A DNA stretch of 64,000 nucleotides, from IMG/VR virus record IMGVR_UViG_3300028388_001983, positions 1-64,000 of that record; one strand, given 5' to 3'. The translations under genes were made by a program, and so were the position numbers. Numbering within the stretch: position 1 is the stretch's first letter; every line of letters starts with the position of its first letter. The notes under the pieces were generated by a model that was not told the DNA's origin, made no database searches, and saw only the letters and a program-made list of their open reading frames with translations. Origin of the DNA: a virus. Shown in pieces: positions 45,954 through 64,000 of this stretch.

Positions 45954-47456
45954 TTATCCAGTAGCCAAAATACTAGGTATAATTCTTCCAGTTTTCAGGG
46001 GGTTCTTAAGCATAATACCACCAATAAACATCTTAAGAACTGTATAACCATCAACTGAGGATGCAGTCATTGTAGGATCAGCATTTCTAGCCATACCGCC
46101 TGCACTGAACGGGTCACGCATACCAGGTATGTAACGGAAATACTCTTCATTATCCTTAACAGCAACCTTCATAATATTAGCTTCACCAGCAGTTGTACCA
46201 GCGTCCCAAATATCATAAATATAAGAACTTGCTAATCCACCTTCAGGGTGAGGAAGCTTATTCCTAATAGGATCGTCTTTCATAGGATCGAGAGTCACCT
46301 TAAATTTAATCCCATTTACAAATTCATAGTTAAGAAACTGACCCTCAAGGAGAGTTACATTGTTTCCACTAGTTTTGATATTATGATCTGACTGCAACCA
46401 AGAAATGTTGGTAGCTTTTTCAGACATTGATTTATGGAATTTATAAAGTCCTCTTTCTCCAGTAGAAAGAATAAACTCACGTTTATCTTCAGGAAGTTTT
46501 CCTACAGATAAGTCAAGTGCAAAATCTCCCAACATATCTGCTGAAAAATCATTATAAAACAAAGTATGACCACCATCCATTTGTTCATAAAGACCAAATC
46601 CTGAACGAATTACGTTACCAGATTCACCTTTATTACCAAAGGAGCCATCGCTAAGTTTATTAGACTTTCCATGAAGGAGTAATCTTGCTTTATCTCTCCT
46701 AAATTGTACCATGAAGTCCCATCCAAGTTTATCCAACCAACGATAATGTTGTTTACCATCTTGATCTACAAAAGCAAATGCAAGAGGTTTATTCTTACCT
46801 TGAAGGATCATATTACCAGGAACATCATAATTCTTACGTATGTAAGAAGTGTTATTCTCCATTCTAAATGGAGCAGAGTGGTGAACAGTGTTACCACGTA
46901 CAGAAAGTTCTTGTTCTACAAGACCATATTCTTCTGACCATCTTGTACCAGCAGCAAGGTCTGTTACAGGAACAAAAAGATTATCATCTCCAGTTACAAG
47001 TTCAACTCTATACCTCCAACCATCACCATCATATACTGGGTCTTCAGTTACACGAAGAGCATACTCATCAGGGTATTCTCCCACTATAACTGATGTAGCC
47101 TCAAAGTATCTTTCAGGAAACCACATATAAAAAGGTGTCCTAGTGATACCTGGCTGATCAGTTGAACTGAGAGCAGAATAACTAGCAGCTAAAGATGCTT
47201 TTACAAGAGGAATATTCCTCTCGTCTGCACCTTGAAGATACCAGTAATAAGGCCCCTCAGTATCCAAATAGTGAGTAGGGAACTGATCCATGAAGCTAAC
47301 AATATTATCAGCACCATAATTGACCTCATAAATCTTATCAATTACTTTACTAATTGCTTCAGGTTCAGTCATACCTATCCAACCCAAATGGGCTTCACGA
47401 GTAAGACCAGACCAGTATTTAGGTTCTACAGTTTGTAATTTACTAATTCTATCCAT
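45954..47456 (-). CDS. Major capsid protein (crAss-like)
   Basis: 500 aa. Diagnostic stretches for the crAss-like major capsid family: KYWSGLTREAHLGWIGMTEP near the start, YYWYLQGADERNIPLVKAS near residue 70, PFYMWFPERYFEATSVIVGE near 110, then NMILQGKNKPLAFAF and WLDKLGWDFMVQFRR. HK97-type fold is expected for the family. Codon use is less AT-biased than neighbours, fitting strong expression. Preceded by the scaffold gene (22 nt gap) and followed by a terminator. High confidence from several family blocks in the right order. Confidence 0.9.
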   Translation of the reverse strand: MDRISKLQTVEPKYWSGLTREAHLGWIGMTEPEAISKVIDKIYEVNYGADNIVSFMDQFPTHYLDTEGPYYWYLQGADERNIPLVKASLAASYSALSSTDQPGITRTPFYMWFPERYFEATSVIVGEYPDEYALRVTEDPVYDGDGWRYRVELVTGDDNLFVPVTDLAAGTRWSEEYGLVEQELSVRGNTVHHSAPFRMENNTSYIRKNYDVPGNMILQGKNKPLAFAFVDQDGKQHYRWLDKLGWDFMVQFRRDKARLLLHGKSNKLSDGSFGNKGESGNVIRSGFGLYEQMDGGHTLFYNDFSADMLGDFALDLSVGKLPEDKREFILSTGERGLYKFHKSMSEKATNISWLQSDHNIKTSGNNVTLLEGQFLNYEFVNGIKFKVTLDPMKDDPIRNKLPHPEGGLASSYIYDIWDAGTTAGEANIMKVAVKDNEEYFRYIPGMRDPFSAGGMARNADPTMTASSVDGYTVLKMFIGGIMLKNPLKTGRIIPSILATG

Positions 47457-48760: not shown

Positions 48761-51115
48761 TTATTTACTAGTAGACTTTTTCTCCTGAGCTTTATTATGT
48801 CTCCTAGTTTCTTCTAATTGATCTCTTTTAAGGTCTAGTTCCCTTTTCTGAGCTTCAATATCTTCTTCAAGCTTACGTCTTTCAAGTTCAAGCTTCTCAT
48901 CATCTATATCAGAGTCTTGTTTCATAGCCTCAACATCTAACTTAGTTAAACGTTCTAAATCAGCTTTATATCTTTCAAGGTCTAATTTAGCTTGTTCTAA
49001 TTGCATTTCAGCTTGTCTAATACTTTGTTCAGCTTTCATTTGCTCCTTAGCTTGAGCTTCTTGACGTTTTTGTATCTCTTCTTCATAAGTTTCAAACTTC
49101 CTCTGTAATGATGCTGGGTCTTTAGTTCTAAATAAATCCATAATCATTGAGAATGTACCACCATTCTGCATGAACGGTTGAGTAAGAGATTGTAAGTGTT
49201 GCATCATTTCTTGATCAGAAGAGGCAGTACTTATATAAATACCATATTCAGCTTCAATAAATTTATCATAATCAAAATCTAATACAGCTTGAGAACCATC
49301 ATCTAATATATAAGACCTCTTAAATTTTTGATCTTTCCATGCAACTTTACAAGTTTCAATCCAAGCTTCAAGAGCTTTTAATTTAACATTATCATGAATA
49401 CCGAACCACTTTTCTGTAATATGAGAAGATTTATTGACTGCCATCTGTACTCCACCTAAAGTTTCTCTATTATCTACAGCTCCTTTACGTTGAGGTGTTA
49501 TACCAGTTATATTATCAATTCTATTAGAAAGAAATTCTAATATCATAAATTGTTGTTGTATAAATCTACCCTGTTCAAGATCAAAGGTATTTTGTTGTTG
49601 TTGCATACCACCAGATAGTTTACCAAGCGCAGCACCTTTATTACCTTCATTAAATGGATCATGGATTGCCCAACCTGTCATTTCTGCATAGTATAACCAT
49701 TTATCTATAGACCAGCCTTCAGGTATCATACTAAGATCGAGCCTACCAATTTTACCTTTATCTTTAGCAGCAGCTTGTTCCATCCTATGCATAATAGCAT
49801 TGTATAAATATTGATAATTTTTACCAATATCCATAATACTTCTACCTTGTTCTTTACCAACATTATTTACTATACCTACTACACCAGGCTTACAATCAGA
49901 AATGTTTTCCATTTTTCTAAATTGTATCTCTCTTGGTTGCATTTTAACATAAATATCATCAGCAATTCTAGTAGCCTCATACCATTCAGAAATCCATTTA
50001 TATTCAACAGTTTGTCCTAATGATTCATCTGGTTCAATAGTGTCTGGAACTACTATTTTTTGTAAGTCTCCATCTTCATCAAAATATTCTATAATACCTA
50101 CTCTACGCATACCTTTCCACAAAGTTCTAGTAACTCTTACATTACCATCTTCATCAAAAGTACCACCAAAAGCAAAAGTATCATTCTTGTTAGCTTTATG
50201 TATAATATTACCAATTCCTTCTTGAGCTATATAATCTTCATAATCATGCCCATGAGTTAATTGGTTTTTCATAAACCCTTTAGCTGATTTCCAAGTATTA
50301 ATTCCTTCTTCAAGTTTTTTAATATCAGAATCTTTTAAGAACTCATGATAAGAATCTATAATTTTACCAATTGGCATATAGATATCTTCTATAATTATAT
50401 CTGAATCTTCTATACGATTAGAATGACCAGACCTAATAGTAATTATGTCTACTGGATGTGCTTTCCTAAGAATTGGTTCACCAGCTACAATATCAGCTAC
50501 ATATATCTCTTCTCCTGCAATAACTAAATCCTCGAATCCGCTACTAAATACTTCTTTAAGATTCAAAGTTCTATATCCATATTCCATCATTTGAGAGACC
50601 ATACGTTCTCTACGATCTCTATAAGTATACTTCTGCCACTTATCAATCTCACGAATTCTGGACTCTAATTCTTCTTTAGACATAGTAGGATTAGTTACCT
50701 CAGAAATAGAAAATTCTCTAAGTCTTTCACTCTGAACTCTCATTTTCTCAGAGATAGCATCACTATTAATAACTGTTACAATCGGATTAAAATATCTTCT
50801 ACGTTCTTCTCCAATTAATACCATTATATTAGGATTCAATAATGGCATGTTTCTATAGTTATCTGGTAGTTTACCATACTCAATACCAAAAGGATTAACT
50901 ATTCTTTGGATTTCTTCAGTATCTACTATATCATTCCAAAGATTATAGTTAACTACTTTATTTTTCCTTGAAGCCCTAACACCAGTATCTCTGTCAAAAT
51001 TTACCATTGATGCTCCTACATCAGCACATTTCTTAAAAAATTCTTGACTTTTTTTGGAATCAGGAACTTTCTGAGCAGGAAAAGCGTTTGCTATATCACT
51101 ACTTATAAATTTCAT
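48761..51115 (-). CDS. Portal protein
   Basis: 784 aa, directly after TerL in the late order. Recognisable portal-type segments of crAss-like phages: NYNLWNDIVDTEEIQRIVNPFG, YRNMPLLNPNIMVLIGEERRR, NITGITPQRKGAVDNRETLGG and VNKSSHITEKWFG-like stem region. The last 120 residues form a long coiled coil of Gln/Glu/Arg/Lys (EQSIRQAEMQLEQAKLDLER). It forms the dodecameric DNA channel at one vertex and docks the terminase. Starts 11 nt after the TerL stop. No signal or membrane segment. Family recognition from sequence pattern plus position. Confidence 0.85.
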   Translation of the reverse strand: MKFISSDIANAFPAQKVPDSKKSQEFFKKCADVGASMVNFDRDTGVRASRKNKVVNYNLWNDIVDTEEIQRIVNPFGIEYGKLPDNYRNMPLLNPNIMVLIGEERRRYFNPIVTVINSDAISEKMRVQSERLREFSISEVTNPTMSKEELESRIREIDKWQKYTYRDRRERMVSQMMEYGYRTLNLKEVFSSGFEDLVIAGEEIYVADIVAGEPILRKAHPVDIITIRSGHSNRIEDSDIIIEDIYMPIGKIIDSYHEFLKDSDIKKLEEGINTWKSAKGFMKNQLTHGHDYEDYIAQEGIGNIIHKANKNDTFAFGGTFDEDGNVRVTRTLWKGMRRVGIIEYFDEDGDLQKIVVPDTIEPDESLGQTVEYKWISEWYEATRIADDIYVKMQPREIQFRKMENISDCKPGVVGIVNNVGKEQGRSIMDIGKNYQYLYNAIMHRMEQAAAKDKGKIGRLDLSMIPEGWSIDKWLYYAEMTGWAIHDPFNEGNKGAALGKLSGGMQQQQNTFDLEQGRFIQQQFMILEFLSNRIDNITGITPQRKGAVDNRETLGGVQMAVNKSSHITEKWFGIHDNVKLKALEAWIETCKVAWKDQKFKRSYILDDGSQAVLDFDYDKFIEAEYGIYISTASSDQEMMQHLQSLTQPFMQNGGTFSMIMDLFRTKDPASLQRKFETYEEEIQKRQEAQAKEQMKAEQSIRQAEMQLEQAKLDLERYKADLERLTKLDVEAMKQDSDIDDEKLELERRKLEEDIEAQKRELDLKRDQLEETRRHNKAQEKKSTSK

Positions 51116-51126
51116 AAGTTATTATT

Positions 51127-54100
51127 TTAATTAAAATATAAATCTTTTAATTCTTCGTTTGCCCTAACACCTGTTCTCGCTCTTGATATTTTATGTCTAG
51201 AGAAAAATGGATCATCTGCTATACTTTTAGTTTTAGTAGACCTCTCTGTAACTTCATATTTGGCAAGCTCTAATCTAAGTATCATCACAAAGTTCATAGC
51301 AGATACACGGTCAAAGTTACCATCTGGATTCCATTTAATAGCTTCTTCTATATAACCTATTGACCTTATTTTATGTAGATTAAGTTTTTTAAGTTCTGAT
51401 TGGTTCTCCGCTTTAATTTTATCTCCTTCAGATAATTGTTCTTCTGGACTATTACTATATGCTGCAGAGAGCATCCATTTAGCTTGTTCTCTTCTACCGA
51501 GAGCATTTATTGGGTCTGTAGCATTTACTCCTTTTTGTTTATTTCCGTAAAGTCGTTCAGATTTGACCATATCCATATCTTTCAAAATCTGAGGAGTATC
51601 AGCCAACATATATAAAGCATTATGATTAGAAAAATAAGGAAATAGTCCCTTTTTATTATTCTCATATAATAGAAGGGCATTATAAAATTTACCTAATCTT
51701 AAGCATATATCATAAAACTCATTTGCCAATCTAGGTCTACCTGTATACTCAGCTACAATCTGGTCAGTAAATCTATCAAATATAAATATACTACCCAAAG
51801 AAGTTGTAGTAGAATCATCATCATCATAAGTATCAATACCACCTATATATCTTAAATAAGGTATACTACCATCGAAAGACTTAATAGGCATTTTAAATAT
51901 TTCAAGTCCACCCTTTTTATTAAGTTTATCTTTTAATGGATAATGTCTTATAGGAGTAATATCTGGATCAATTTTCCAATGAATGTCTCCATTATTATCT
52001 ATACCTAATCTACCAGTATAATGAGGAGATAAAAACTTATCTTCATTAACTCTAATATCTGCAAGATAATCCTTCAAATCTTCTGCTGGGAATAGATTAC
52101 CTTCTTTACGTAAGATAGCTTCTTGAGGAGTAATAGGACTTTCTGCTTTTTCTTGAGTAAGAGCGTTAGGATCAGAAGTACCATATTTAATAGTAATTCT
52201 CCTTTTAATAATTTGTAATAATGCTTTAATTACATCAGAATTACCATTTTTATCATAACATCTATGTCTATTCATATATTCTGGAGCAAAGAAAGCACAA
52301 TAACTATTACTACCAGTACCTTTATCATACACATTAGGAAGTTTTAATATGTTATAACCTTCAGGATTGTAGAACATTTCTTCTGCAGCCCTAAAATCTG
52401 CATCAGCAGTACCTCCAGTATTATGGGTAACAATACCGTTTCCTATATATGTATGAGTTTTACCAGCAGTTAAATTATAAATTGGTTTTATTCCAGTATA
52501 CTCTATATCTATAACTCTTTCAAATCTAAGACCTTTAATAGATTTAGACTCTTCTGATCTTTTATTAGAGTAATATTTATATAGGTTTTGTAAACTCTTC
52601 CTTTTATATTTTATTTTAGGATTTATATTTTCATAAAACCTATCTATACTAAACTTCTTACGAATTTCTAATCTAAAATAATTATTTTTATCTAAAGGAT
52701 TATTACTGTTAGAAACATCAATTTCATGTATATTAGAATGTATTCCTAATTTTTGTAATAATAATAACACTTCTAATAATAACTCTTTACAAGAACTACA
52801 TAAAGTTATTCTATTTTCACCATAATATCCATCAGCGTCAAAAAGACCCGCTAATAATTTAGTAACTGACTCTTTACTGAAACTATGAATATTATTAGGT
52901 AGACGTTTTTTATTTTTAGTCTGACCATAAATTCCTAACTCTCTTAAAGGTTTAGTAATTTCTTTAATTCTAATTTCCCTATAAATTCTATTATCTTTTG
53001 TAAGAGTTTCTTTCTCTACAACGATATTAAAGTTTTCTTTTAGGTATAAATACGTTTCTTCATCTGCTGAAGATAGTATAGGAGTTTTATTATAACCATA
53101 GCTACCATCTCCAATCAATAAACCTACTAAATAAGGATTCCAAAACTTCTTATCAGACCATATGTCTACTTTGTCTATTGTAGCAACTTGATCACCAATT
53201 TTTATTTCATCTGCTCTTTTAAAAATAGTTTTTTTAGTAAATAGTCTCTTATTATTTATCCTGGGCCTACTACCATAATTTTGTTTGCTCCATAAGATAG
53301 GATGATCAATACTACACTCAATACTTCTACCAGTATTAGTAGTAACCTTAATACATTCTTTTTTTGCAGGAGGTTGCCAATAAGTAATATTCTCTTCAGA
53401 AACTCCTACATTATTTTCATACCCTAAAATACCTTCCTCTTGTTTAATATCTTCTATATTTATTAATTCCCCTTTATTATTCCACACTTTATTTCCAGCA
53501 GTTAAACATCCCCAGGCTATCATTGTTCCGAAAGCATCATCACCATCTTGAACAGAAGGTTTAGCCACAGTCCAAGCATGTAAAAGTTCTGGAAATTTAC
53601 CCATCTCTTCCCATTTGAGTCTATTTCTAGGAAATGGAGTATGATCTGCACACCAATCGGAAACGTTTACAAACTTATTAAGAATACCATCTTTGATTAA
53701 AAACTCTTTCTCATTAGCAATATTAAATATAGTTTGATGTTTTCTAGATTCTACTGGTTCATGTCTATCACCTAGTATAAATACTTTAGCATCAATTGCT
53801 CCACCTTTATAAGAAAAACCTCTACCTCTTGTCTTTAGTATATTACAATGTTTTCCTGCAACTCCAGCCTGTTCTACATAATGAAAAAATAAATAATCTC
53901 CATCCCAAGGTTTAGGAAATTTTCTAACTTTAATTTCTTTACCAGTTGTAGGATGTTTTTCTGATAATAGTATAGGAGAATAGTTCCAATAGAAATAATT
54001 TAATCCAGTAATCCATTCTCCATCAGATTCTCTGACATAACCTTCTCTACATCTACGAGCCTCTTCTTCCCAAAATTTAGCATACTCAGACTGAGGATGA

Positions 54101-54387
54101 GAGTTTGGATGAAGATCAGTATATTTACCAGTTTTCTCGTGAGCAATTGCTGGTTGTCTAAAATAGTCTATATCTTCTAATATATGAGGATTAGTTATAT
54201 CAACCTTAACTCTACCTAAATTATCTTTTGGTAAATCTTTAGCATATAACCTATCTACAGATATTAAATTTTCAATAAGTTTAATATTGTCAACATACTC
54301 AAATAAAAGAGTTTTTTCTTCTTTAGAAAGACTCTTTAAGAGGTTTTCATCTATCTGTGTTTGATATTTATTAAAATTATATGCCAT
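51127..54387 (-). CDS. terL: Terminase large subunit interrupted by an intein
   Basis: ATG at 54387 (MAYNFNKYQTQID) is preferred to TTG at 54393; 1086 aa, of which 363 are intein, leaving a normal 723-aa extein. ATPase: Walker A-like KTRGRGFSYK (185-194), Walker B-like RLKWEEMGKFP (256-266), coupling motif rebuilt as AWG-TGGT after splicing. Nuclease: IGGIDTYDDDDS with Asp852 as the first RNase H-type ligand, then LLLYENNKKGLF. It packages and cuts phage DNA. Overlaps the upstream small-terminase candidate by 11 nt. Without protein splicing the ATPase would be inactive. Confidence 0.93.
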   Translation of the reverse strand: MAYNFNKYQTQIDENLLKSLSKEEKTLLFEYVDNIKLIENLISVDRLYAKDLPKDNLGRVKVDITNPHILEDIDYFRQPAIAHEKTGKYTDLHPNSHPQSEYAKFWEEEARRCREGYVRESDGEWITGLNYFYWNYSPILLSEKHPTTGKEIKVRKFPKPWDGDYLFFHYVEQAGVAGKHCNILKTRGRGFSYKGGAIDAKVFILGDRHEPVESRKHQTIFNIANEKEFLIKDGILNKFVNVSDWCADHTPFPRNRLKWEEMGKFPELLHAWTVAKPSVQDGDDAFGTMIAWGCLTAGNKVWNNKGELINIEDIKQEEGILGYENNVGVSEENITYWQPPAKKECIKVTTNTGRSIECSIDHPILWSKQNYGSRPRINNKRLFTKKTIFKRADEIKIGDQVATIDKVDIWSDKKFWNPYLVGLLIGDGSYGYNKTPILSSADEETYLYLKENFNIVVEKETLTKDNRIYREIRIKEITKPLRELGIYGQTKNKKRLPNNIHSFSKESVTKLLAGLFDADGYYGENRITLCSSCKELLLEVLLLLQKLGIHSNIHEIDVSNSNNPLDKNNYFRLEIRKKFSIDRFYENINPKIKYKRKSLQNLYKYYSNKRSEESKSIKGLRFERVIDIEYTGIKPIYNLTAGKTHTYIGNGIVTHNTGGTADADFRAAEEMFYNPEGYNILKLPNVYDKGTGSNSYCAFFAPEYMNRHRCYDKNGNSDVIKALLQIIKRRITIKYGTSDPNALTQEKAESPITPQEAILRKEGNLFPAEDLKDYLADIRVNEDKFLSPHYTGRLGIDNNGDIHWKIDPDITPIRHYPLKDKLNKKGGLEIFKMPIKSFDGSIPYLRYIGGIDTYDDDDSTTTSLGSIFIFDRFTDQIVAEYTGRPRLANEFYDICLRLGKFYNALLLYENNKKGLFPYFSNHNALYMLADTPQILKDMDMVKSERLYGNKQKGVNATDPINALGRREQAKWMLSAAYSNSPEEQLSEGDKIKAENQSELKKLNLHKIRSIGYIEEAIKWNPDGNFDRVSAMNFVMILRLELAKYEVTERSTKTKSIADDPFFSRHKISRARTGVRANEELKDLYFN
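52420..53508 (-). other. Intein with LAGLIDADG homing endonuclease in TerL
   Basis: 363 codons from Cys (53508-53506) to Asn (52422-52420). N-terminal splice block CLTAGNKVWNNKGEL; block B TNTGRSIECSIDHPI with the key His; two LAGLIDADG motifs, LVGLLIGDGSYG and LLAGLFDADGYYG; block F RVIDIEYTGIKPIYNLTAGK; C-terminal block GNGIVTHN followed by Thr as +1 residue. All residues needed for splicing (Cys1, block B His, penultimate His, last Asn, +1 Thr) are present, and both endonuclease motifs keep their acidic residues. Confidence 0.95.
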
Positions 54388-54937
54388 CTTCAAAAGTACT
54401 CTTTGTCATGGAGCCTCTCATAGTAGACTCTTTTCTATCTTCTTTTTTAACTTGTTCAACTGTTTTTTCAAATGACTCTATAAGCGATGGTATTTGTTTA
54501 GCTACATCTACAATCTTTTTAAGATCATAAACATGTTTTATATTACCCTGAGCATCTCTATAAGTTTCATTCGGGTCTATATTACCTAACATAGTATTAA
54601 CCTTCTCTAATAAAGACATAGTATTCTTTAACATCTTTACTGAGATAGTATCACTACGATCCCGATAAAAGTTACGAGCCTCATTAACTTTATCGTCTGC
54701 CTTCCAATTATTAGGAAGATCAATAAGAGATAATATCTCTTTTGACCTTTCCTCCTCATCAATTATATCAAAGAAATCTGATCTATGATCATCCATATAC
54801 CAAATATAAGTTAACTCTTTGATAGCTTTCTCTTTATTCTTACTCTTGTCTCTTTGCCAAAGTACCTTAAAAGGAGCAAGTTCTAAAGCTTGAGGAGAAA
54901 AGGTCAATTTATGATTTTTTAATTCAAATAAGTTCAT
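54377..54937 (-). CDS. Small terminase subunit candidate, 186 aa
   Basis: Gene directly upstream of TerL, overlapping it by 11 nt, the usual site of terS. The protein is helical and charged, with WYMDDHRSDFFDIIDEEER in the first half and a coiled C-terminal region (MSLLEKVNTMLGNIDPNET, EKTVEQVKKEDRKES). No clear helix-turn-helix is visible to me, so DNA recognition is not proven. Could alternatively be a conserved TerL partner of unknown role. Confidence 0.5.
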   Translation of the reverse strand: MNLFELKNHKLTFSPQALELAPFKVLWQRDKSKNKEKAIKELTYIWYMDDHRSDFFDIIDEEERSKEILSLIDLPNNWKADDKVNEARNFYRDRSDTISVKMLKNTMSLLEKVNTMLGNIDPNETYRDAQGNIKHVYDLKKIVDVAKQIPSLIESFEKTVEQVKKEDRKESTMRGSMTKSTFEDGI

Positions 54938-56099: not shown

Positions 56100-56311
56100 T
56101 TATTTAAATCTTGTTTAGAATAAAATTTTTCAACAGGGTCTTTTTTCGTAGCTTGGATGGTAACCTTGTATAAACCATCTACTTTCATAAATGATGCTTT
56201 AAAATTCATATTCAATTTTCTAATTGCATCATAATTAAATTTATAGTATTCAATCGCTTCTAAACGATCTTCAAACTCTCTACTTTCATCTATAAAATTA
56301 GTTTTTTCCAT
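56096..56311 (-). CDS. Hypothetical protein, 71 aa
   Basis: ATG start inside the preceding winged-helix gene (14-nt overlap); its stop overlaps the exonuclease start by 4 nt (ATGA). Sequence is charged: MEKTNFIDESREFEDRLEA, then IRKLNMNFKASFMKVDGLYK. No motif or membrane segment. Translational coupling on both sides makes it likely to be real. Confidence 0.6.
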   Translation of the reverse strand: MEKTNFIDESREFEDRLEAIEYYKFNYDAIRKLNMNFKASFMKVDGLYKVTIQATKKDPVEKFYSKQDLNK

Positions 56312-56657
56312 CTATAAAATTTATTATAATTTGTTCAGTATTAGGTAAAACCTTGTCTCTTACCAAACCTTTAGATTTTAAAAAACCTTTACGTTTTAAC
56401 GATGCCATAATATTATATACGTTATCAGTAGAAATATTTAACTTATCTGCTATCTCTACTCTAGTATCATAATCAAATATAAATCTATTTCTTTTATCCT
56501 CATTAAAATTTCTAAACTCATAATCATACATAAATAATTCAGATAAAACTTGTTTCTCTCTATTATTTAATAATGAGTATGGAGAAATAAAAGAAAATAA
56601 ATTCAACATAATTAGATACTTATTATTCTTCTCATTATGCGGAATATTTAACTTCAT
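56298..56657 (-). CDS. Winged-helix DNA-binding protein, 119 aa
   Basis: A compact winged helix-turn-helix: LLNNREKQVLSELFMYD as first helix, then TRVEIADKLNISTDNVYNIM as the HTH with recognition helix, and SLKRKGFLKSKGL leading into the wing. Resembles replication-initiator or MarR/PadR-like winged helices of phages. Situated just upstream of packaging and exonuclease genes, it could regulate the late block or load replication proteins. Starts 23 nt inside the preceding ORF. Confidence 0.7.
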   Translation of the reverse strand: MKLNIPHNEKNNKYLIMLNLFSFISPYSLLNNREKQVLSELFMYDYEFRNFNEDKRNRFIFDYDTRVEIADKLNISTDNVYNIMASLKRKGFLKSKGLVRDKVLPNTEQIIINFIDGKN

Positions 56658-56913
56658 CTTGCTCTATTTTTTCTAACTCCTTTTTACTTAACACCCAAAA
56701 TAATTTTAACTGTAATTCAGTTAAATCATCTAAATATTCATAATCTACTAAAACTGTATCATGTATTTTTTTATAATATAATTCATCATTATTATTTCTA
56801 CAACACATAAAACAGTCTCCAGTTTCAGTATAAACTACATCACCTTCTACAGGTTTAATAACCATTTGTAAGGGATTAGAATTGCCTTTGTAAAACACCA
56901 TCATACTAATCAT
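56635..56913 (-). CDS. Hypothetical protein, 92 aa
   Basis: Starts MISMMVFYKGNSNPLQMVIK and holds CFMCCRNNNDELYYKK with a CxxCC cluster, then an acidic leucine-rich end (LTELQLKLFWVLSKKELEK). The cysteine cluster could bind metal but only one cluster is present. First gene after the GH5 enzyme (12-nt gap in reading direction). Function unknown. Confidence 0.55.
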   Translation of the reverse strand: MISMMVFYKGNSNPLQMVIKPVEGDVVYTETGDCFMCCRNNNDELYYKKIHDTVLVDYEYLDDLTELQLKLFWVLSKKELEKIEQDEVKYSA

Positions 56914-56925
56914 AATTAATAAGTA

Positions 56926-59220
56926 TTATTGTACAGTATATTTTTCTAACTTAAAGTACTCTAAAATAAAGTTTTGAGTTCCATAACCTAATAAAAACTC
57001 TACAGTAGTTCCAGATGCCGTTGCTCTCGGCATTATATAAGTTTCTACTACAGTTGTAGAAGAAGTATTTAGATTATAAGTATAATTCCAACTATGATAA
57101 CCACTATATTTATGAGCTACTTGTGTTTTAGTACCACCATCAGTTTTCATAATATAAGTTACTTTATAAACATCACTTTGAGTAAGTTCAAAACTAGGAC
57201 TATTTAATCTAATATTTAACATATTATAATCACTAGTATTTATAGTAACTTTTAAATTTCCATTATCTACCGCTACACTAGCATCAGCAGTAGTACCATA
57301 TACATCTAAATCCCATTGTCCAACTGCTGCCCAAGTATTATACTCATAGATAGTTGTAGTATCATTATTATCTAAACTTGGATAACTATCATTTATAAGA
57401 TTAGTAGCCAATGGTTCATACCAACCAGATGTAGTAGCTGATCCATAATCTGGATTCATATAAGCTCCAAAATCTGTTCTATGATCCCAATAAGTCCAAG
57501 GAATATTATTATCGGCTAACCATGCTGATAACATAGTAGAATAATCTACTCTATTTGCAGAGTCTACAAATACCATAGTACCCCATTCTGTAATATTTAA
57601 AGGAACATCATGTTGTGACCTAAAGTCTAAAGCATCTTCCCAATCTTCTTCAAAAATATCATAGACAGGTTCAATTTTTGGAAATTCTGCTCCTGCATAA
57701 TCAGTTCCTCCGAAACTACCTTCATAAGGAGAATTTTGTACGGTCACCCACCAGGGATCATAATAATGAATAGTTAATGCCCACATAGTATCTGTAGGGT
57801 GTGGTTCAAAATTTCTAATACCAGAAATTTGTCCCCAGTCTATAGGCTCTACACAAATTAATCTCGATTGATCGTAAACTCTGATTGAGTCTAAACATCT
57901 ATGCCAAGTGGTATTCCAATAATTAGCACCTTCATCTCTAGGCTCATTAGCTAATTCAAACGCCATTTGCTCATTAGTATACTTACTTTCAAAATATTCT
58001 GCCATTTGTCCCCAGTGTGCAGCCAAACTATCTGCATCAGTTTGAGAATAATAATCTTCATGCCACCAATCAGGAGAAACATGATAATCAAAAATAACAA
58101 AAAGGCCATTATTAATACAAGAATCTATAATTTCACAAGCATTATCTAACGCTGCTTCTGGTAATGTTCTAGTAGTTAAACCAGTTTTCATTACTAGCCT
58201 GACACTTTCAAAACCTTTTTGAGCAATACTGTATATATATGCAGAATCTTTATAAGTTTGATTCATGTTCCAATTTCCATCACCATCTAAAACAATATTG
58301 CGAAGGTCTAAACCTTTTCCTATTAAAGCGTTTATAGATTCAGCAGTACCTTCAGCATAAGTTGTATCTGGTGGTACAGGAGGAGGATCACCTCCACCAC
58401 CTTCTCCATAGTATCTTATATAATCTTTAGCTATAGCATAATATGTACTATTTTTATATATGTTATAATTAGTACCATCTATAGATATAAAATTATAAAT
58501 GGTAGTAGTATCACTACTAGTAGTAGTAGTCCATAAATAAGAATATGTAGGACTTCCTGATTTATACAAAGTATCACTTATAGTTGTAGCATCTAAAGTT
58601 TCTTTAAATAGTGCCCAAGCATCAAGTCTACCATCTAATGAATAACTATCATTACCATTAGCCATAAATTGCCAATTTGCAGTAGAATGTGTCTCTGCAG
58701 TAGTTACATTATGAGTTGATACCGAAGTTCCATTAACATAAAATTTTACATTATCTGACCCAAGACTATTATCATAGGTTAACATAATATGAACCCATTC
58801 TCCAGTAGCAGCAGTAGTACTAGAACTTAAATAGTTTCCAAATACAGTATAAGCCCAATTATCTGAAGAATTAACATAAATTTCAAAATCACCATAATAT
58901 CTCCCAACTATTCTATGATCAGCATCTACATCATCTAAATAAACCCAACCACCTATACTAAAAGCATTTCCTGTAGAAATGGCTGATATTTCTATATAAT
59001 CACCTCCAGAACCATCTGTTTCTACATAATTACCTAAAATACCTCCAGTTCCTAAAACAGTTACAGTTCCAGAAGTTGTTCCAGAATGTCCATTACCAGA
59101 ACTATCTGCTAAACTTGAAGTTTCAAAATCCCATATTGCCTCAGCTCTATCCTGTAAAGCTTGAGAATGTAATCCCATTGAAACTATTAATAAAATTATA
59201 TTAAAAACTATTTTCTTCAT
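56926..59220 (-). CDS. Exported GH5 endoglucanase/cellulase-type enzyme with LamG and C-terminal carbohydrate-binding domain
   Basis: 764 aa. Signal peptide MKKIVFNIILLIVSMGLHSQ; LamG/concanavalin-type domain (about 28-215, beginning WDFETSSLADSSGNGHSG); Gly/Pro linker GEGGGGDPPPVPPD; GH5 TIM barrel (about 290-600); C-terminal beta-sandwich of CBM4/9 (CenC) type. All eight residues invariant in GH5 are found: Arg341, His380, Asn425, Glu426 (acid/base in ANEP), His485, Tyr487, Glu545 (nucleophile in TEWG) and Trp578. It would hydrolyse beta-1,4 glucan or a related polymer. Start overlaps the tiny ORF upstream (ATGA). Other hydrolase-like proteins lie just upstream, so these may form a surface-glycan-degrading tail apparatus, or the enzyme may be secreted. 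Confidence 0.88.
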   Translation of the reverse strand: MKKIVFNIILLIVSMGLHSQALQDRAEAIWDFETSSLADSSGNGHSGTTSGTVTVLGTGGILGNYVETDGSGGDYIEISAISTGNAFSIGGWVYLDDVDADHRIVGRYYGDFEIYVNSSDNWAYTVFGNYLSSSTTAATGEWVHIMLTYDNSLGSDNVKFYVNGTSVSTHNVTTAETHSTANWQFMANGNDSYSLDGRLDAWALFKETLDATTISDTLYKSGSPTYSYLWTTTTSSDTTTIYNFISIDGTNYNIYKNSTYYAIAKDYIRYYGEGGGGDPPPVPPDTTYAEGTAESINALIGKGLDLRNIVLDGDGNWNMNQTYKDSAYIYSIAQKGFESVRLVMKTGLTTRTLPEAALDNACEIIDSCINNGLFVIFDYHVSPDWWHEDYYSQTDADSLAAHWGQMAEYFESKYTNEQMAFELANEPRDEGANYWNTTWHRCLDSIRVYDQSRLICVEPIDWGQISGIRNFEPHPTDTMWALTIHYYDPWWVTVQNSPYEGSFGGTDYAGAEFPKIEPVYDIFEEDWEDALDFRSQHDVPLNITEWGTMVFVDSANRVDYSTMLSAWLADNNIPWTYWDHRTDFGAYMNPDYGSATTSGWYEPLATNLINDSYPSLDNNDTTTIYEYNTWAAVGQWDLDVYGTTADASVAVDNGNLKVTINTSDYNMLNIRLNSPSFELTQSDVYKVTYIMKTDGGTKTQVAHKYSGYHSWNYTYNLNTSSTTVVETYIMPRATASGTTVEFLLGYGTQNFILEYFKLEKYTVQ

Positions 59221-59282
59221 ATTATTAATTTATTTAATCCCAATACCGCTACTACAATTCCAATGATTACTTCAATTTCCAT
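59217..59282 (-). CDS. Tiny hydrophobic ORF, 21 aa
   Basis: MEIEVIIGIVVAVLGLNKLI plus one residue, a single hydrophobic helix. ATG at 59282 lies inside the previous tiny ORF (16-nt overlap); its TGA overlaps the GH5 start as ATGA. May be a membrane peptide or mainly a coupling leader for the GH5 gene. Very short, so tentative. Confidence 0.25.
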   Translation of the reverse strand: MEIEVIIGIVVAVLGLNKLII

Positions 59283-59326
59283 GATTTACTTTTTTTTGGT
59301 TTAATTCCTACTCCCGGTGATTTCAT
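59267..59326 (-). CDS. Tiny basic ORF, 19 aa
   Basis: MKSPGVGIKPKKSKSWKLK. Start overlaps the stop of the 48-aa ORF as ATGA (59326-59323) and the end overlaps the next tiny ORF. Coupling is visible, but the length gives no independent support for a product. Confidence 0.22.
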   Translation of the reverse strand: MKSPGVGIKPKKSKSWKLK

Positions 59327-59469
59327 TTGAATAATTTTTTATATTTCTTAATAACATTTTGCCTTATATTATTAACAGGATTCTTAAAAGTTACCCTGCC
59401 TTTAGAATCAACTTTACTTACTTGTCTAAACTTTTCTTTCTTTGGCTTTAATTGTTTTTCTTTTCTCAT
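59323..59469 (-). CDS. Small basic protein, 48 aa
   Basis: ATG at 59469 overlaps the stop of the 222-aa gene (ATGA); ends TGA at 59323. The peptide is strongly basic: MRKEKQLKPKKEKFRQVSK, then VTFKNPVNNIRQNVIKKYKK. No cysteines or hydrophobic segment. Could bind nucleic acid or acidic partners; unknown. Confidence 0.45.
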   Translation of the reverse strand: MRKEKQLKPKKEKFRQVSKVDSKGRVTFKNPVNNIRQNVIKKYKKLFK

Positions 59470-60134
59470 GACAAATCCTCCCTTAATAACCATCCAGCCG
59501 GATAAGCTACTGGTGAATAAACATTATAATCAATCAGACTTTCATAAACATTACCGTCTGTATATCTTACTAAATCCCCTATACGAAACGCATCATGTCC
59601 CCCCGTGGGTTGATACCATTCAATGATTTCTTCACTTGGCACGCTCTTCCAAAGAGCTGGAGTAATATCAGGTGTTTGTCCTTCTACTGTCATGTGCTCC
59701 TGTAAGCACTCATACTGAATATTATTCCAAATCCGTTTCCATCCTACATATACATATTCATTCTGAATCCATTGTAAATCATCTGCGTTATCCCTGAAAA
59801 AAGTAAATAAAGCCGGTATTTCGGAAGGTTTGTAAATGGTTTTTAAATGGGATTGACGGCAAATAAATAAATCACTCGGCTGATCTAATCCTAAATCAGG
59901 GTCATCCCATTGATAAACTTTTCCTTGTTCTAAAGTTTCATGTTCGTCGTATCTTAATATTTCTGTTGTGCCTGTTTGCTTGGATATAATCAAATCTTTT
60001 GCAGATTGTAAATCCTCATCACTTAATACTCTTTCAGGTAACATATAAGTATTATCAGGAAGTTTACGAGAATTAATACCACTATATTTCCCAAACTTAC
60101 CTTCAATATGTTCTGATAATATTATTATATTCAT
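59466..60134 (-). CDS. Virion protein with two chitin-binding-type modules, 222 aa
   Basis: After an N-terminal alpha/beta part (MNIIILSEHIEGKFGKYSG), two short aromatic modules appear in the C-terminal half: WNNIQYECLQEHMTVEGQTP...LWKSV and RYTDGNVYESLIDYNVYSPV...GWLL. The pattern of W/Y, a Y-E-C/S-L strand and a terminal W resembles CBM5/12 (ChtBD3) modules often attached to phage tail fibres. Stop overlaps the 48-aa ORF and start overlaps the 266-aa gene, both as ATGA. Probable glycan-binding accessory of the tail. Confidence 0.58.
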   Translation of the reverse strand: MNIIILSEHIEGKFGKYSGINSRKLPDNTYMLPERVLSDEDLQSAKDLIISKQTGTTEILRYDEHETLEQGKVYQWDDPDLGLDQPSDLFICRQSHLKTIYKPSEIPALFTFFRDNADDLQWIQNEYVYVGWKRIWNNIQYECLQEHMTVEGQTPDITPALWKSVPSEEIIEWYQPTGGHDAFRIGDLVRYTDGNVYESLIDYNVYSPVAYPAGWLLREDLS

Positions 60135-60931
60135 GTTAATATTCCTTTGCCATTTGAATCCATGTATGTTTCAATCGCATTCCTTATTACACCTTCAGAT
60201 GTACTTGATAATTTTTTAGCCCCAGACATGTAAAAACTAATCGTATCCAAAGCATAATAAGCACCTACTCTCAGTAAGGTAACTTGACTTGAAGGTAAAT
60301 TATCATTATCCCCAACATAAGATGTTAACAACCCATTATTCCATACTGATACATTAGTCAAATTATTAGAACTAAAAATATAATTTGTATTATTATTTGT
60401 ATTATTTATATCTTTTCTAGTATTATCATTATGATAATGCCTAATTTTATCAATGCTGTAATATCCTAATCCATACGCAGCAATACCATACTGAGGCCCA
60501 TATGAAGCTGGGTTAATACCTCCACTTAATGTTAGCAAACCATAAGAAGATTCATTTTGAGTATAATTTACCGCATCCGTAGAAGGATTATAATCCATTT
60601 TTAAATAAGCATTTGAACCATCTCCCTTAAATCCTTCATACTGAGTAAATACTGGGCTATTATATGCTATCCCATCATGACTTCTTTTAACCATGTTCTT
60701 TAATGCAGCATCTTCTGTCTCATTTGCCAACATGTAAAAAGTATCAAAAAAATCACTCAAATTATTAATATTCAATCCATCCTTTACGTCCGTTATAAGT
60801 GTACTTAATTTCGTTTGTTGGTCAGAACTCAATGGAGTAGATAAAGCGTCAAGATAGGTTTGAAGGTCGGGGTCTAATATAACGCCTCCCCCACCCCTCC
60901 TTTTTGTTAGTCCTAATCCTATTCCTATCAT
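60131..60931 (-). CDS. Tail/adhesion protein of a family common in phages of Bacteroidota, 266 aa
   Basis: Starts MIGIGLGLTKRRGGGG, then LDPDLQTYLDALSTPLSSDQ, NINNLSDFFDTFYMLANET and FTQYEGFKGDGSNAYLKMDY, followed by a LamG-like beta domain. I recognise this order from structural/adhesion proteins in phages of Bacteroidota, where a glycine-rich leader precedes a helical part and a beta-sandwich. It likely sits on the virion surface. Coupled to both neighbours by ATGA overlaps. Confidence 0.62.
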   Translation of the reverse strand: MIGIGLGLTKRRGGGGVILDPDLQTYLDALSTPLSSDQQTKLSTLITDVKDGLNINNLSDFFDTFYMLANETEDAALKNMVKRSHDGIAYNSPVFTQYEGFKGDGSNAYLKMDYNPSTDAVNYTQNESSYGLLTLSGGINPASYGPQYGIAAYGLGYYSIDKIRHYHNDNTRKDINNTNNNTNYIFSSNNLTNVSVWNNGLLTSYVGDNDNLPSSQVTLLRVGAYYALDTISFYMSGAKKLSSTSEGVIRNAIETYMDSNGKGILT

Positions 60932-61140
60932 AATTTTATTTTTTTATTTTGCCCAAGGCATATATAAAGTTGTTCATACCATTGTTCGCCACGTTCAAAT
61001 AACACTGAATAATCATCTTGTAAAGTTGTTGAGTTGACTTTCGCAAGAGTTTTCCAGGGAGAATATGAAGATGTTCCTGAATTATTATCATTCCCGTCTG
61101 GACTTACATAATAAGCTGTGACTGTATCGCTTTTATTCAT
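60928..61140 (-). pseudogene. Truncated N-terminus of a beta-helix polysaccharide-lyase-like protein, 70 aa
   Basis: The segment YYVSPDGNDNNSGTSSYSPW then KTLAKVNS and VLFERGEQWYEQL is the usual start of long right-handed beta-helix proteins of the PL9-like type. Only this cap remains; the frame ends after a short unrelated tail (YICLGQNKKIKL), with no beta-helix repeats. It still has an ATG inside the preceding gene end (8-nt overlap) and an ATGA overlap with the next gene, so it may still be translated. Looks like a remnant of a lost tailspike domain. Confidence 0.6.
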
Positions 61141-64000
61141 CTTTATTCATCCATGCGTGACTAAGAACTTGATTAGGGTCTGAAAATTCACCAGCAAGAG
61201 GGACTCCATTTTTCCCTTGTGCTTCCTGTTTCCATTGAAAAACTGCTATATCATCAATTTGCCACCATTCATCACGTTGAGCAGATTCATCTTCCCCTCC
61301 ATCATAAGGAGCCCCTAATGAATTTCCTCCGAAAAAAACATCCCCTCTGAATGTATTGATTCCCCATTGATCTGGTCTTGTCGTTCTGTAATAAGAGGAA
61401 AGAATCTCCATACCGCTGTATCTTCCATGTAATACCCCATCTACAAATACTTCCATGAATCCATCTTGATTAACTGAATTATCTGCATTATAGGTATTCA
61501 TCACATATCTAAGGGTAATATTTTGCCATTGTCCAGGTTCTAGGTAGGCCCTTCCGTTAAATTGATAGCAAAAATCGCCTGCTCCCCATTGTGTTCTTCC
61601 TGAGTTTTGATAATACATATAAAAATATAATTGACCCCTATCTGGATCACCAGTGACGGGCTTATACATTACCCTTAAAGAAGCTCCTTCATCGTATGTA
61701 GGTTGCATAGATATAGTTTTATCACCTCCAGCATGAACTCCGGCGAACATTTTTCCGCCACGGTTAAAAAGAAAACCAGGTTTATGTTTAATATTATACG
61801 TCATCCACACTTCTTCGTAAGGGCCAATAGGCATATTCCATTCATCGCCGCCGATGAGATTTGTGACACCTCCTTCAACTGTATTATATTCAAGTACCTT
61901 TGATCCATAATTACTATCAATAGTTATTGAATCAAAATATCCTACCGTATATGGCAATGGAGAAGTCTCTGGATATTTATAATATGTATTTGCCAGACTA
62001 GATACATAACTGGCATTATATTCTGAAGTTGAAGGGTCTCTATAATCAACTGATCTTCCTGTCCCCCCCGGGAAATCTTGTTGGTATTGTGATTTTGTCC
62101 ATTTCCCTGTTGAATGATCTTCCCAATCTTGTTCTAAGATGATAGTATATTGAGACTTATCTGGATTATCATATACAGGGGGTTCATATGTTGTACTTGA
62201 CCCGGATAATATTGAGCCTGGATTTGAATATAATTCAGCTACATTTGCTGAAGATAATGTTTGATTCATAATCAAAACCTCATCCAGATATGCGTTAATA
62301 TCATCCGTCCCATCTTTTTGTTGTCCAATTCGTGTGACTCCGGCCAGCGTAACGCCAGAATGAAAATCTGTTGAACTTCCTTCATAAATATTATCAACAT
62401 AAAAGTTGACGGAATCCGCATACTTATTGACAACAACATGAGACATTGCATCTGTTACAAATACAACTCCTGTATTAGATGCTGCTGTAAGCGTAGTTCC
62501 GTCTTTTGTTTCAAGATAGACGGTATTAGTAGAAAAATTAATATAAATATTAATGCTATCAGAACTAAATACTGTTGATCTTGTGTATGCGTCTTTCTCT
62601 GTTACCCAAAATGAAACTGAAAAAACTGTATCTACATCACTACCCAAATTAATTTCAAAATATCTATCTGTCCCCCACATTTGCCATGCGTAAGTTCCCG
62701 CTGCAACCGCATTCGTTGTATAGCCCAATGCTGCGCTAGCTGTCCCATTATAATTATCAAGATCATCTAACACATTATTTTCTGCCTTATAATGTGCTAA
62801 TGTTTCAACTGTGTCTGAACCGTATGAAACGAGACTCAGGCTTACATCTTGCAATTCATTATACTGCATGTCAACAACATTATTATTTCCAGATTTTGCA
62901 TATACTATTGAATCTGGAGAACTTGCAGAAGCACAAGTGAATAATATTACATTCCCATCTATGACTGGATTTGTGACTTCTTTTTCTGACGCTCCCTCAT
63001 AAGCTTTCCATGCTGCCGTATCGGGCGTTATAGATGATATTAATTGTTCATTTGCATTAATCCTTATTTTATTGTCCCCGTCTCGATTAAAACTGGCTGT
63101 ATCAATCGTAGGAGGTATCACATCTATGATTGCAGCCTCTCCAATGTAAGCACTAAGAAGATCGTTAGACGTTGCTTCTGAAATCACATCACTATATATT
63201 CTTGCTCCATCCAAATATCCTGATAATGTCAAGGTATCTGACAAATTAAGCCCAAATCTGAGAGTGTCTTGCGTCCAATTCACCGCAAGATTAGCAGTAG
63301 AATCTTCTGTTTGATCAATTCCGTTAATAATGAACCTTACATCATTTGTTGTACTATCAACTGTCAATATTACCATATTCGATCCTGCTCCGGGCACGAA
63401 TATGCTATCATTTGATGATGCTGTATCTCCTGCACATATAAAATGAAACTGTCGATTAGGAGCATCAAGCAAAAATTCTGTTGTGTCTGTTGCAAAAATT
63501 GTCCCAACGTAGTCAACCCCCCATACTTGCAAACCTACTGCAAAAGTGAATGAGTTTGAAAATGGAAAATTATTTACATCTATATAGCTTGTTGAAAAAA
63601 ATGATGCTTTATAGTTACCAGAAAGTGCAAGGGCCGTAGGGTAATAGAATCCTGATGATGCAGTTCCGTCATAACTTCCCTTTGAGTCTTGCGCATTGTT
63701 TTCAAAGTCATAAAAGGAAATTAACGAAATCAATTCTTCAACATTATTAGTTACGACTTCATTGTTAAAAGTAGCTAGAGCATTCCCGGAGAGATCTCTA
63801 ATGTAATTATCTGAAAGGGTATTGTATGACAAATTAAGCACATCACTTTGCACGATTGTATCGTTAAGACTTAAATAAATATATTGTCCGGATGCAGTTA
63901 TACTATCAATTTCTGTCGAAGAAAAATGATTTATACTTATAATGAACGCATCATCACTTACACTAGGAACATATGAGGCGTCTATTGATTCTGAAAAAGT
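61133..64000 (-). CDS. Multidomain adhesin/polysaccharide lyase (two LamG, PL14-like C-terminus), 5' end outside window
   Basis: The frame is open to the last base of the window; 955 aa visible. An apparent GTG start at 63853 is not needed because coding sequence continues upstream. From the N-terminus: an Ig-like segment (ITASGQYIYLSLNDTI, LRDLSGNALATF-like), a LamG domain (YDFENNAQDSKGSYDG), a second Ig-like segment (PPTIDTASFNRDGDNKIRIN), a second LamG (AHYKAENNVLDDLDNYNG), and a C-terminal 320-aa domain with VWMTYNIKHKPGFLFNRGG, KMFAGVHAGG and YFYMYYQNSG, resembling PL14 (alginate/glucuronan-lyase-like) folds. G+C is visibly higher than elsewhere, suggesting recent transfer. Probably a tailspike or secreted depolymerase. 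Confidence 0.72.
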   Translation of the reverse strand, partial: TFSESIDASYVPSVSDDAFIISINHFSSTEIDSITASGQYIYLSLNDTIVQSDVLNLSYNTLSDNYIRDLSGNALATFNNEVVTNNVEELISLISFYDFENNAQDSKGSYDGTASSGFYYPTALALSGNYKASFFSTSYIDVNNFPFSNSFTFAVGLQVWGVDYVGTIFATDTTEFLLDAPNRQFHFICAGDTASSNDSIFVPGAGSNMVILTVDSTTNDVRFIINGIDQTEDSTANLAVNWTQDTLRFGLNLSDTLTLSGYLDGARIYSDVISEATSNDLLSAYIGEAAIIDVIPPTIDTASFNRDGDNKIRINANEQLISSITPDTAAWKAYEGASEKEVTNPVIDGNVILFTCASASSPDSIVYAKSGNNNVVDMQYNELQDVSLSLVSYGSDTVETLAHYKAENNVLDDLDNYNGTASAALGYTTNAVAAGTYAWQMWGTDRYFEINLGSDVDTVFSVSFWVTEKDAYTRSTVFSSDSINIYINFSTNTVYLETKDGTTLTAASNTGVVFVTDAMSHVVVNKYADSVNFYVDNIYEGSSTDFHSGVTLAGVTRIGQQKDGTDDINAYLDEVLIMNQTLSSANVAELYSNPGSILSGSSTTYEPPVYDNPDKSQYTIILEQDWEDHSTGKWTKSQYQQDFPGGTGRSVDYRDPSTSEYNASYVSSLANTYYKYPETSPLPYTVGYFDSITIDSNYGSKVLEYNTVEGGVTNLIGGDEWNMPIGPYEEVWMTYNIKHKPGFLFNRGGKMFAGVHAGGDKTISMQPTYDEGASLRVMYKPVTGDPDRGQLYFYMYYQNSGRTQWGAGDFCYQFNGRAYLEPGQWQNITLRYVMNTYNADNSVNQDGFMEVFVDGVLHGRYSGMEILSSYYRTTRPDQWGINTFRGDVFFGGNSLGAPYDGGEDESAQRDEWWQIDDIAVFQWKQEAQGKNGVPLAGEFSDPNQVLSHAWMNKDE

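Follow-up and report, generated by a model that had tools for sequence, protein, structure and literature searches.

The gene examined here is the final member of a block of approximately 12 kb in a virus record that is linear and 73,143 bases long, the first 64,000 of which (bases 1–64000) constitute the window, that is, the whole stretch of DNA that was analysed. The block is flanked by the gene for a SEC-C motif protein and by a 92-aa gene, and the GH5 gene is in a same-strand run that continues into the terminase, portal and capsid genes (Table 1), in agreement with the phage context that the original prediction had assigned to it. Its open reading frame encodes 764 residues and is uninterrupted by stops. 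Between the CBM5/12 motif gene and the GH5 gene, positions 59221–59465 hold several tiny open reading frames of about 20–50 codons each.

Table 1. Genes and domains at the GH5 locus and lineage markers of the phage; positions are those of the window or, where so marked, of the record.
Feature	Position	Strand	Basis or remark
Major capsid protein	45954..47456	(-)	Lineage marker; 78% identity to nearest relatives
Portal protein	48761..51115	(-)	Lineage marker
Terminase large subunit with LAGLIDADG intein	51127..54393	(-)	Lineage marker
119-aa protein	56298..56657	(-)	Conserved marker upstream of terminase in crAss-like relatives
92-aa gene	56635..56913	(-)	Downstream boundary of the block, kept in relatives
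GH5 gene, 764 aa: signal peptide, LamG, linker, GH5, CBM-like domain	56926..59220	(-)	
C-terminal beta-sandwich of GH5 protein, CBM4/16/29/86-like	56929..57378	(-)	Low-confidence model
GH5 (beta/alpha)8 catalytic domain, residues 291-613	57382..58350	(-)	Profile, alignment, model
LamG/concanavalin-like domain, residues 71-215	58576..59010	(-)	Pfam PF13385 (Laminin_G_3), E 9.9e-19
Signal peptide, residues 1-19, Gln at +1 (Q-rule)	59164..59220	(-)	Hydropathy and motif scan
222-aa protein, CBM5/12 motif	59466..60134	(-)	C-terminus as in other phage proteins (phrog_18593)
266-aa protein, no signal peptide	60131..60931	(-)	Homologue of an Elemovirus protein whose gene adjoins a tail-fibre gene
70-aa fragment of Pel9A-like beta-helix protein	60928..61140	(-)	Pfam PF22842, E 0.005, weak
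1040-aa protein: Q-rule signal peptide, two LamG, PL14-like domain	61133..64000 (record 61133-64255)	(-)	
671-aa Pel9A/PelN-like (PL9) protein	record 64338-66353	same strand	
654-aa protein	record 66355-68319	same strand	
157-aa protein	record 68465-68938	same strand	
69-aa SEC-C motif protein	record 69059-69268 (L002:15059-15268)		Beside the block

The assignment of the catalytic domain to GH5 is well past the level of chance. The Pfam Cellulase/GH5 profile (PF00150) matched residues 317–580 with an E value of 5e-34 and 118.5 bits (cut-off 23.5), and the eight catalytic residues that had been named at the outset (Arg341, His380, Asn425, Glu426, His485, Tyr487, Glu545 and Trp578) were found exactly at those positions and were invariant in an alignment with 37 bacterial GH5 homologues. 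The acid/base and nucleophile roles in the domain are predicted to fall to Glu426 and Glu545. In the AlphaFold2 model the GH5 domain had pLDDT values mostly of 85–97, the remainder of the protein being weakly modelled, and the best Foldseek matches to its (beta/alpha)8 fold were the Cel5A enzymes of Fervidobacterium and Thermotoga (E 2e-22, TM 0.88 by target length); a phmmer search of PDB sequences agreed. Chance similarity or misannotation was ruled out by the profile, the fold and the invariant residues together.

The accessory parts of the protein were also borne out. A hydropathy and motif scan identified a clear Sec signal peptide at the N-terminus, ending ...MGLHS/Q (the slash marks the predicted cleavage site), and the LamG domain was recovered by its Pfam profile. 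Sequence searches with the C-terminal 150 residues returned no match, and this region resembles CBM4/16/29/86-type modules in a single-sequence model of low confidence (pLDDT 63), consistent with the C-terminal binding domain that had been proposed.

The term “cellulase” fared less evenly, as the GH5 family part of the claim stood and the specificity did not. Substrate specificity is not readable because GH5 spans many substrates and the nearest bacterial GH5 sequences, which come from many phyla including the Bacteroidota, are only 25–29% identical to the phage domain. For this phage protein “cellulase” remains a family label, and endo-beta-1,4-glucanase activity is putative. The Thermotoga and Fervidobacterium Cel5A enzymes share the GH5 fold and the active-site residues with it, including the conserved Thr493 and Gln495, but they are single-domain hyperthermophile enzymes with 26–27% identity to the phage GH5. 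According to the titles of the structure matches, Thermotoga Cel5A was crystallised with cellobiose and with a mannotriose substrate. The structural matches also included CcsZ of C. difficile (6uje), a GH5 protein that forms one subunit of a bacterial cellulose synthase complex. In a GH5 tree, built twice, the phage sequence had a very long end branch and its placement was unsure as regards both donor and subfamily; its best matches were to Cel5A (GH5_25-like subfamily).

Relatives of the GH5 sequence in other phages were sought in several ways. None was found at E 1e-5 in 50,697 phage records, in which weak GH5 matches to Erwinia, Ochrobactrum and faecal phages appeared only at E values up to 5; the Erwinia phage cellulases matched only at E about 1. 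Two IMG/VR pattern scans also gave no relatives, such scans detecting close relatives only, so that the true number may be higher. In addition, none of 61 related records contained a GH5, although short fragments are numerous among them.

The terminase, portal and major capsid proteins have crAss-like homologues in conserved order, which places the phage in the Crassvirales. Crassvirales genomes are circular and near 97 kb, and this linear record is probably a fragment. Inteins in TerL, such as that in the terminase of this phage, have been described for some crAss-like groups (PMC10136315). Cellulophaga phage phi14:2 (Crassvirales, Steigviridae) is among the cultured relatives and, together with the low G+C and the Q-rule leaders described below, these relatives point to a Bacteroidota host. 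Many relatives carry an open reading frame of about 470–510 aa with a GroEL-like start between the small and large terminase genes (loci L004, L007, L009, L010, L014, L016, L018, L022, L031, L032 and L033), and in phi14:2 a gene annotated as GroEL lies upstream of the terminase; the corresponding place in the window showed no such frame.

Comparison with the nearest two relatives, G448 (IMGVR 3300031365_000004, a 43-kb record) and G436, whose capsid proteins are 77–78% identical to that of this phage, revealed the block to be an insertion relative to them. In both relatives a 106-aa gene is followed directly by the SEC-C gene and then by the 92-aa gene, whereas here about 12 kb separates the SEC-C and 92-aa genes. 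A bacterial contig or an assembly chimera is disfavoured by the phage genes on both flanks, ordered as in the close relatives. A tie between the SEC-C gene and the exported proteins of the block was considered and rejected, as that gene is also present in relatives that have no block.

Several block proteins besides the GH5 have features of polysaccharide-active enzymes. The 671-aa protein matched the PelN model with an E value of 8.8e-36, under that model's own cut-off, and the rhamnogalacturonan lyase of PDB 5olq with an E value of 3e-16. The 70-aa beta-helix fragment, whose gene overlaps the end of the 1040-aa gene, is probably what is left of a decayed depolymerase gene and would therefore be a sign of turnover in the block. 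Codon use differs among the block genes, with the GH5 and 157-aa genes resembling the phage core and the 222-, 266-, 1040-, 671- and 654-aa genes deviating from it; this suggests that the block may have been gained stepwise, with the GH5 as its longer-settled member.

Five of the block proteins are 230 aa or longer, and four of these (the GH5, 1040-, 671- and 654-aa proteins) had Q-rule signal peptides; of 21 large proteins encoded outside the block in the record, none had one (Fisher p 3e-4). These leaders were called by a simple hydropathy and motif scan rather than by a trained predictor, and all four begin with basic residues, followed by a hydrophobic core and, past the predicted cleavage site, a Gln. 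A Gln at this +1 position is what the Q-rule describes for signal peptidase I substrates of Bacteroidetes (PMC5837995). Five proteins of a module in G448 show the same pattern; otherwise hardly any protein of 200 aa or more in the crAss-like loci sampled has such a leader. A scan of block proteins for a type IX secretion C-terminal sorting domain gave no NCBIfam match.

The G448 module is located between the capsid and tail genes and includes a homologue of the 157-aa protein of the block (E 1.5e-9), which adjoins Q-rule signal-peptide proteins, one with a LamG domain and one with a GDSL esterase. It differs from the block in its position and in having the GDSL esterase in place of the GH5 and lyases; no GH5 was found in the 43-kb G448 record. 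We had suspected that the 1040-aa protein was homologous to the GDSL protein of G448, but the comparison was not significant. Two G448 proteins (L180:8334-8948 and L180:9985-11037) have a common signal peptide and about 45 further residues in common before they diverge (phmmer E about 1e-8), a common N-terminal part that is perhaps an anchor module. In phi14:2 a pectate-lyase-type protein, g086, is encoded between the capsid and tail genes and was identified in virions by MS/MS. In contrast to the four Q-rule proteins of the block it has no signal peptide, and the phi14:2 module is without a GH5 and is at the usual place, not upstream of the terminase as here. Based on the 157-aa gene that is common to the G448 module, and on the virion lyase held by that of phi14:2, the block looks like a relocated, variable version of a phage polysaccharide-interaction module.

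A GH5 in a phage had been regarded as unexpected, a view that is weakened by active viral GH5 enzymes known from two sources. One is gp095 of Erwinia phage S6, a GH5 that has accessory domains at its N-terminus and is encoded in a polymorphic region; it degrades carboxymethylcellulose, and infection requires host cellulose (PMC9544554). S6 belongs to another phage group with a host of another phylum, and no signal peptide of gp095 is mentioned in the available portion of that report. A GH5 endomannanase of soil viruses was likewise found by metagenomics and had its activity demonstrated, but the sections available present it as a metabolic gene for plant polymers and describe no comparable multi-enzyme block (PMC6786970). 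In a survey of 525 pig crAss-like vOTUs, the glycoside hydrolases reported were only of lysozyme-type families and GH16, with no GH5 (PMC12053484). Phage-encoded signal-peptidase-I substrates that obey the Q-rule have been noted, without known function, in phages of Porphyromonas gingivalis, which differ in inserting into host tRNA genes and whose Q-rule proteins have no enzymes assigned in the part of the report at hand (PMC10367356). Phage GH5 enzymes, polysaccharide-cutting proteins of Crassvirales and Q-rule proteins of Bacteroidota phages are thus already known singly; as far as our searches show, an inserted block that combines them is without precedent.

Of the roles suggested for the gene at the outset, namely degradation of a capsule or exopolysaccharide, release from biofilms, and metabolic cargo, the surroundings favour a depolymerase module exportable by the host, without separating the first two; this evidence lies mostly outside the coordinates that the original prediction gave. 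We lean towards the GH5 being part of an exchangeable module of polysaccharide depolymerases that would be exported by Sec and target extracellular polysaccharide, although we put this at slightly less than an even chance. The module would be synthesised late in infection along with the structural genes, and the GH5, PL9/pectate-lyase-like, LamG plus PL14-like and 654-aa proteins would exit the cytoplasm by the host Sec/signal-peptidase-I route to gather in the periplasm, from which they would be freed at lysis, if not earlier. LamG and CBM-type domains would keep the enzymes on polysaccharide while the catalytic domains cut host capsule, exopolysaccharide or biofilm matrix, and such cutting may let progeny escape and find new cells. 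The intact GH5, its enzymatic and binding neighbours, the Q-rule leaders, the insertion and the link to a structural module all argue for this proposal. Further support comes from the phi14:2 virion lyase, the S6 GH5 and the view that Crassvirales spikes digest CPS/EPS (PMC10136315).

An exported depolymerase module has points against it, too: PL9 and GH5 families act typically on plant or algal wall polymers, and the phi14:2 virion lyase has no signal peptide. The first of these leads to the main rival, that the block is metabolic or ecological cargo whose enzymes for plant or algal polysaccharides (beta-1,4-glucan or mannan, pectin, uronans) feed or release the host. The PL9 pectin-lyase-like, GH5 and PL14-like proteins do resemble a wall-degrading set, the closest GH5 homologues are bacterial enzymes, and the soil-virus GH5 has proven endomannanase activity (PMC6786970). 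However, the block sits amid structural genes, has fibre-like proteins and has a gene in common with the structural module of a relative, and it contains no transporter, SusCD, exo-glycosidase or regulator. Endo-enzymes of Bacteroidota, moreover, usually use a surface-lipoprotein route and not soluble export by signal peptidase I, which also counts against cargo, and we consider this explanation rather unlikely.

The ties to structural genes could alternatively mean that the proteins are virion-borne tailspikes or fibres, particle components that bind and cut a receptor polysaccharide, with a leader that is lost in the mature form or serves in virion anchoring. The 157-aa gene, the pectate-lyase-type protein in phi14:2 virions and the fibre-like look of the neighbours that have no signal peptide are in keeping with this. 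It is nonetheless doubtful, and less likely than cargo, as virion assembly is cytoplasmic and the phi14:2 virion lyase is leaderless, whereas four block proteins and five G448 proteins have the basic start, hydrophobic core and Q-rule site. How an exported depolymerase would reach polymer outside the cell before lysis is unexplained, since export by signal peptidase I takes a protein only as far as the periplasm and the scan gave no type IX domain. Those same two observations suit action in the periplasm during infection, where the enzymes might cut nascent exopolysaccharide or surface glycan and so remove a receptor (superinfection exclusion) or loosen the envelope; the presence of CcsZ among the structural matches is consistent with such a role. 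Binding domains for large polymers, on the other hand, seem superfluous in the periplasm, and we regard a periplasmic role as improbable.

The exported-depolymerase proposal can be extended, more tentatively, to the suggestion that some Crassvirales possibly carry a phage-encoded secretome, an exchangeable set of polysaccharide enzymes and lectins that carry Q-rule tags for Sec export. During infection or after it, these would work outside the virion, and they would be made with, but separate from, the tail fibres. If so, its action could be the clearing of matrix as a benefit common to the phage population, or receptor removal. With a nearest identity of 25–29%, the GH5 is also a candidate enzyme for a new specificity. 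Phage depolymerases are usually viewed as virion-bound spikes, and a crAss-like phage that exports a glycan-cutting set through host secretion would, if this is true, be using a different delivery strategy. Enzyme export by the host route, a directly testable idea, would then have effects on biofilm that reach past the infected cell.
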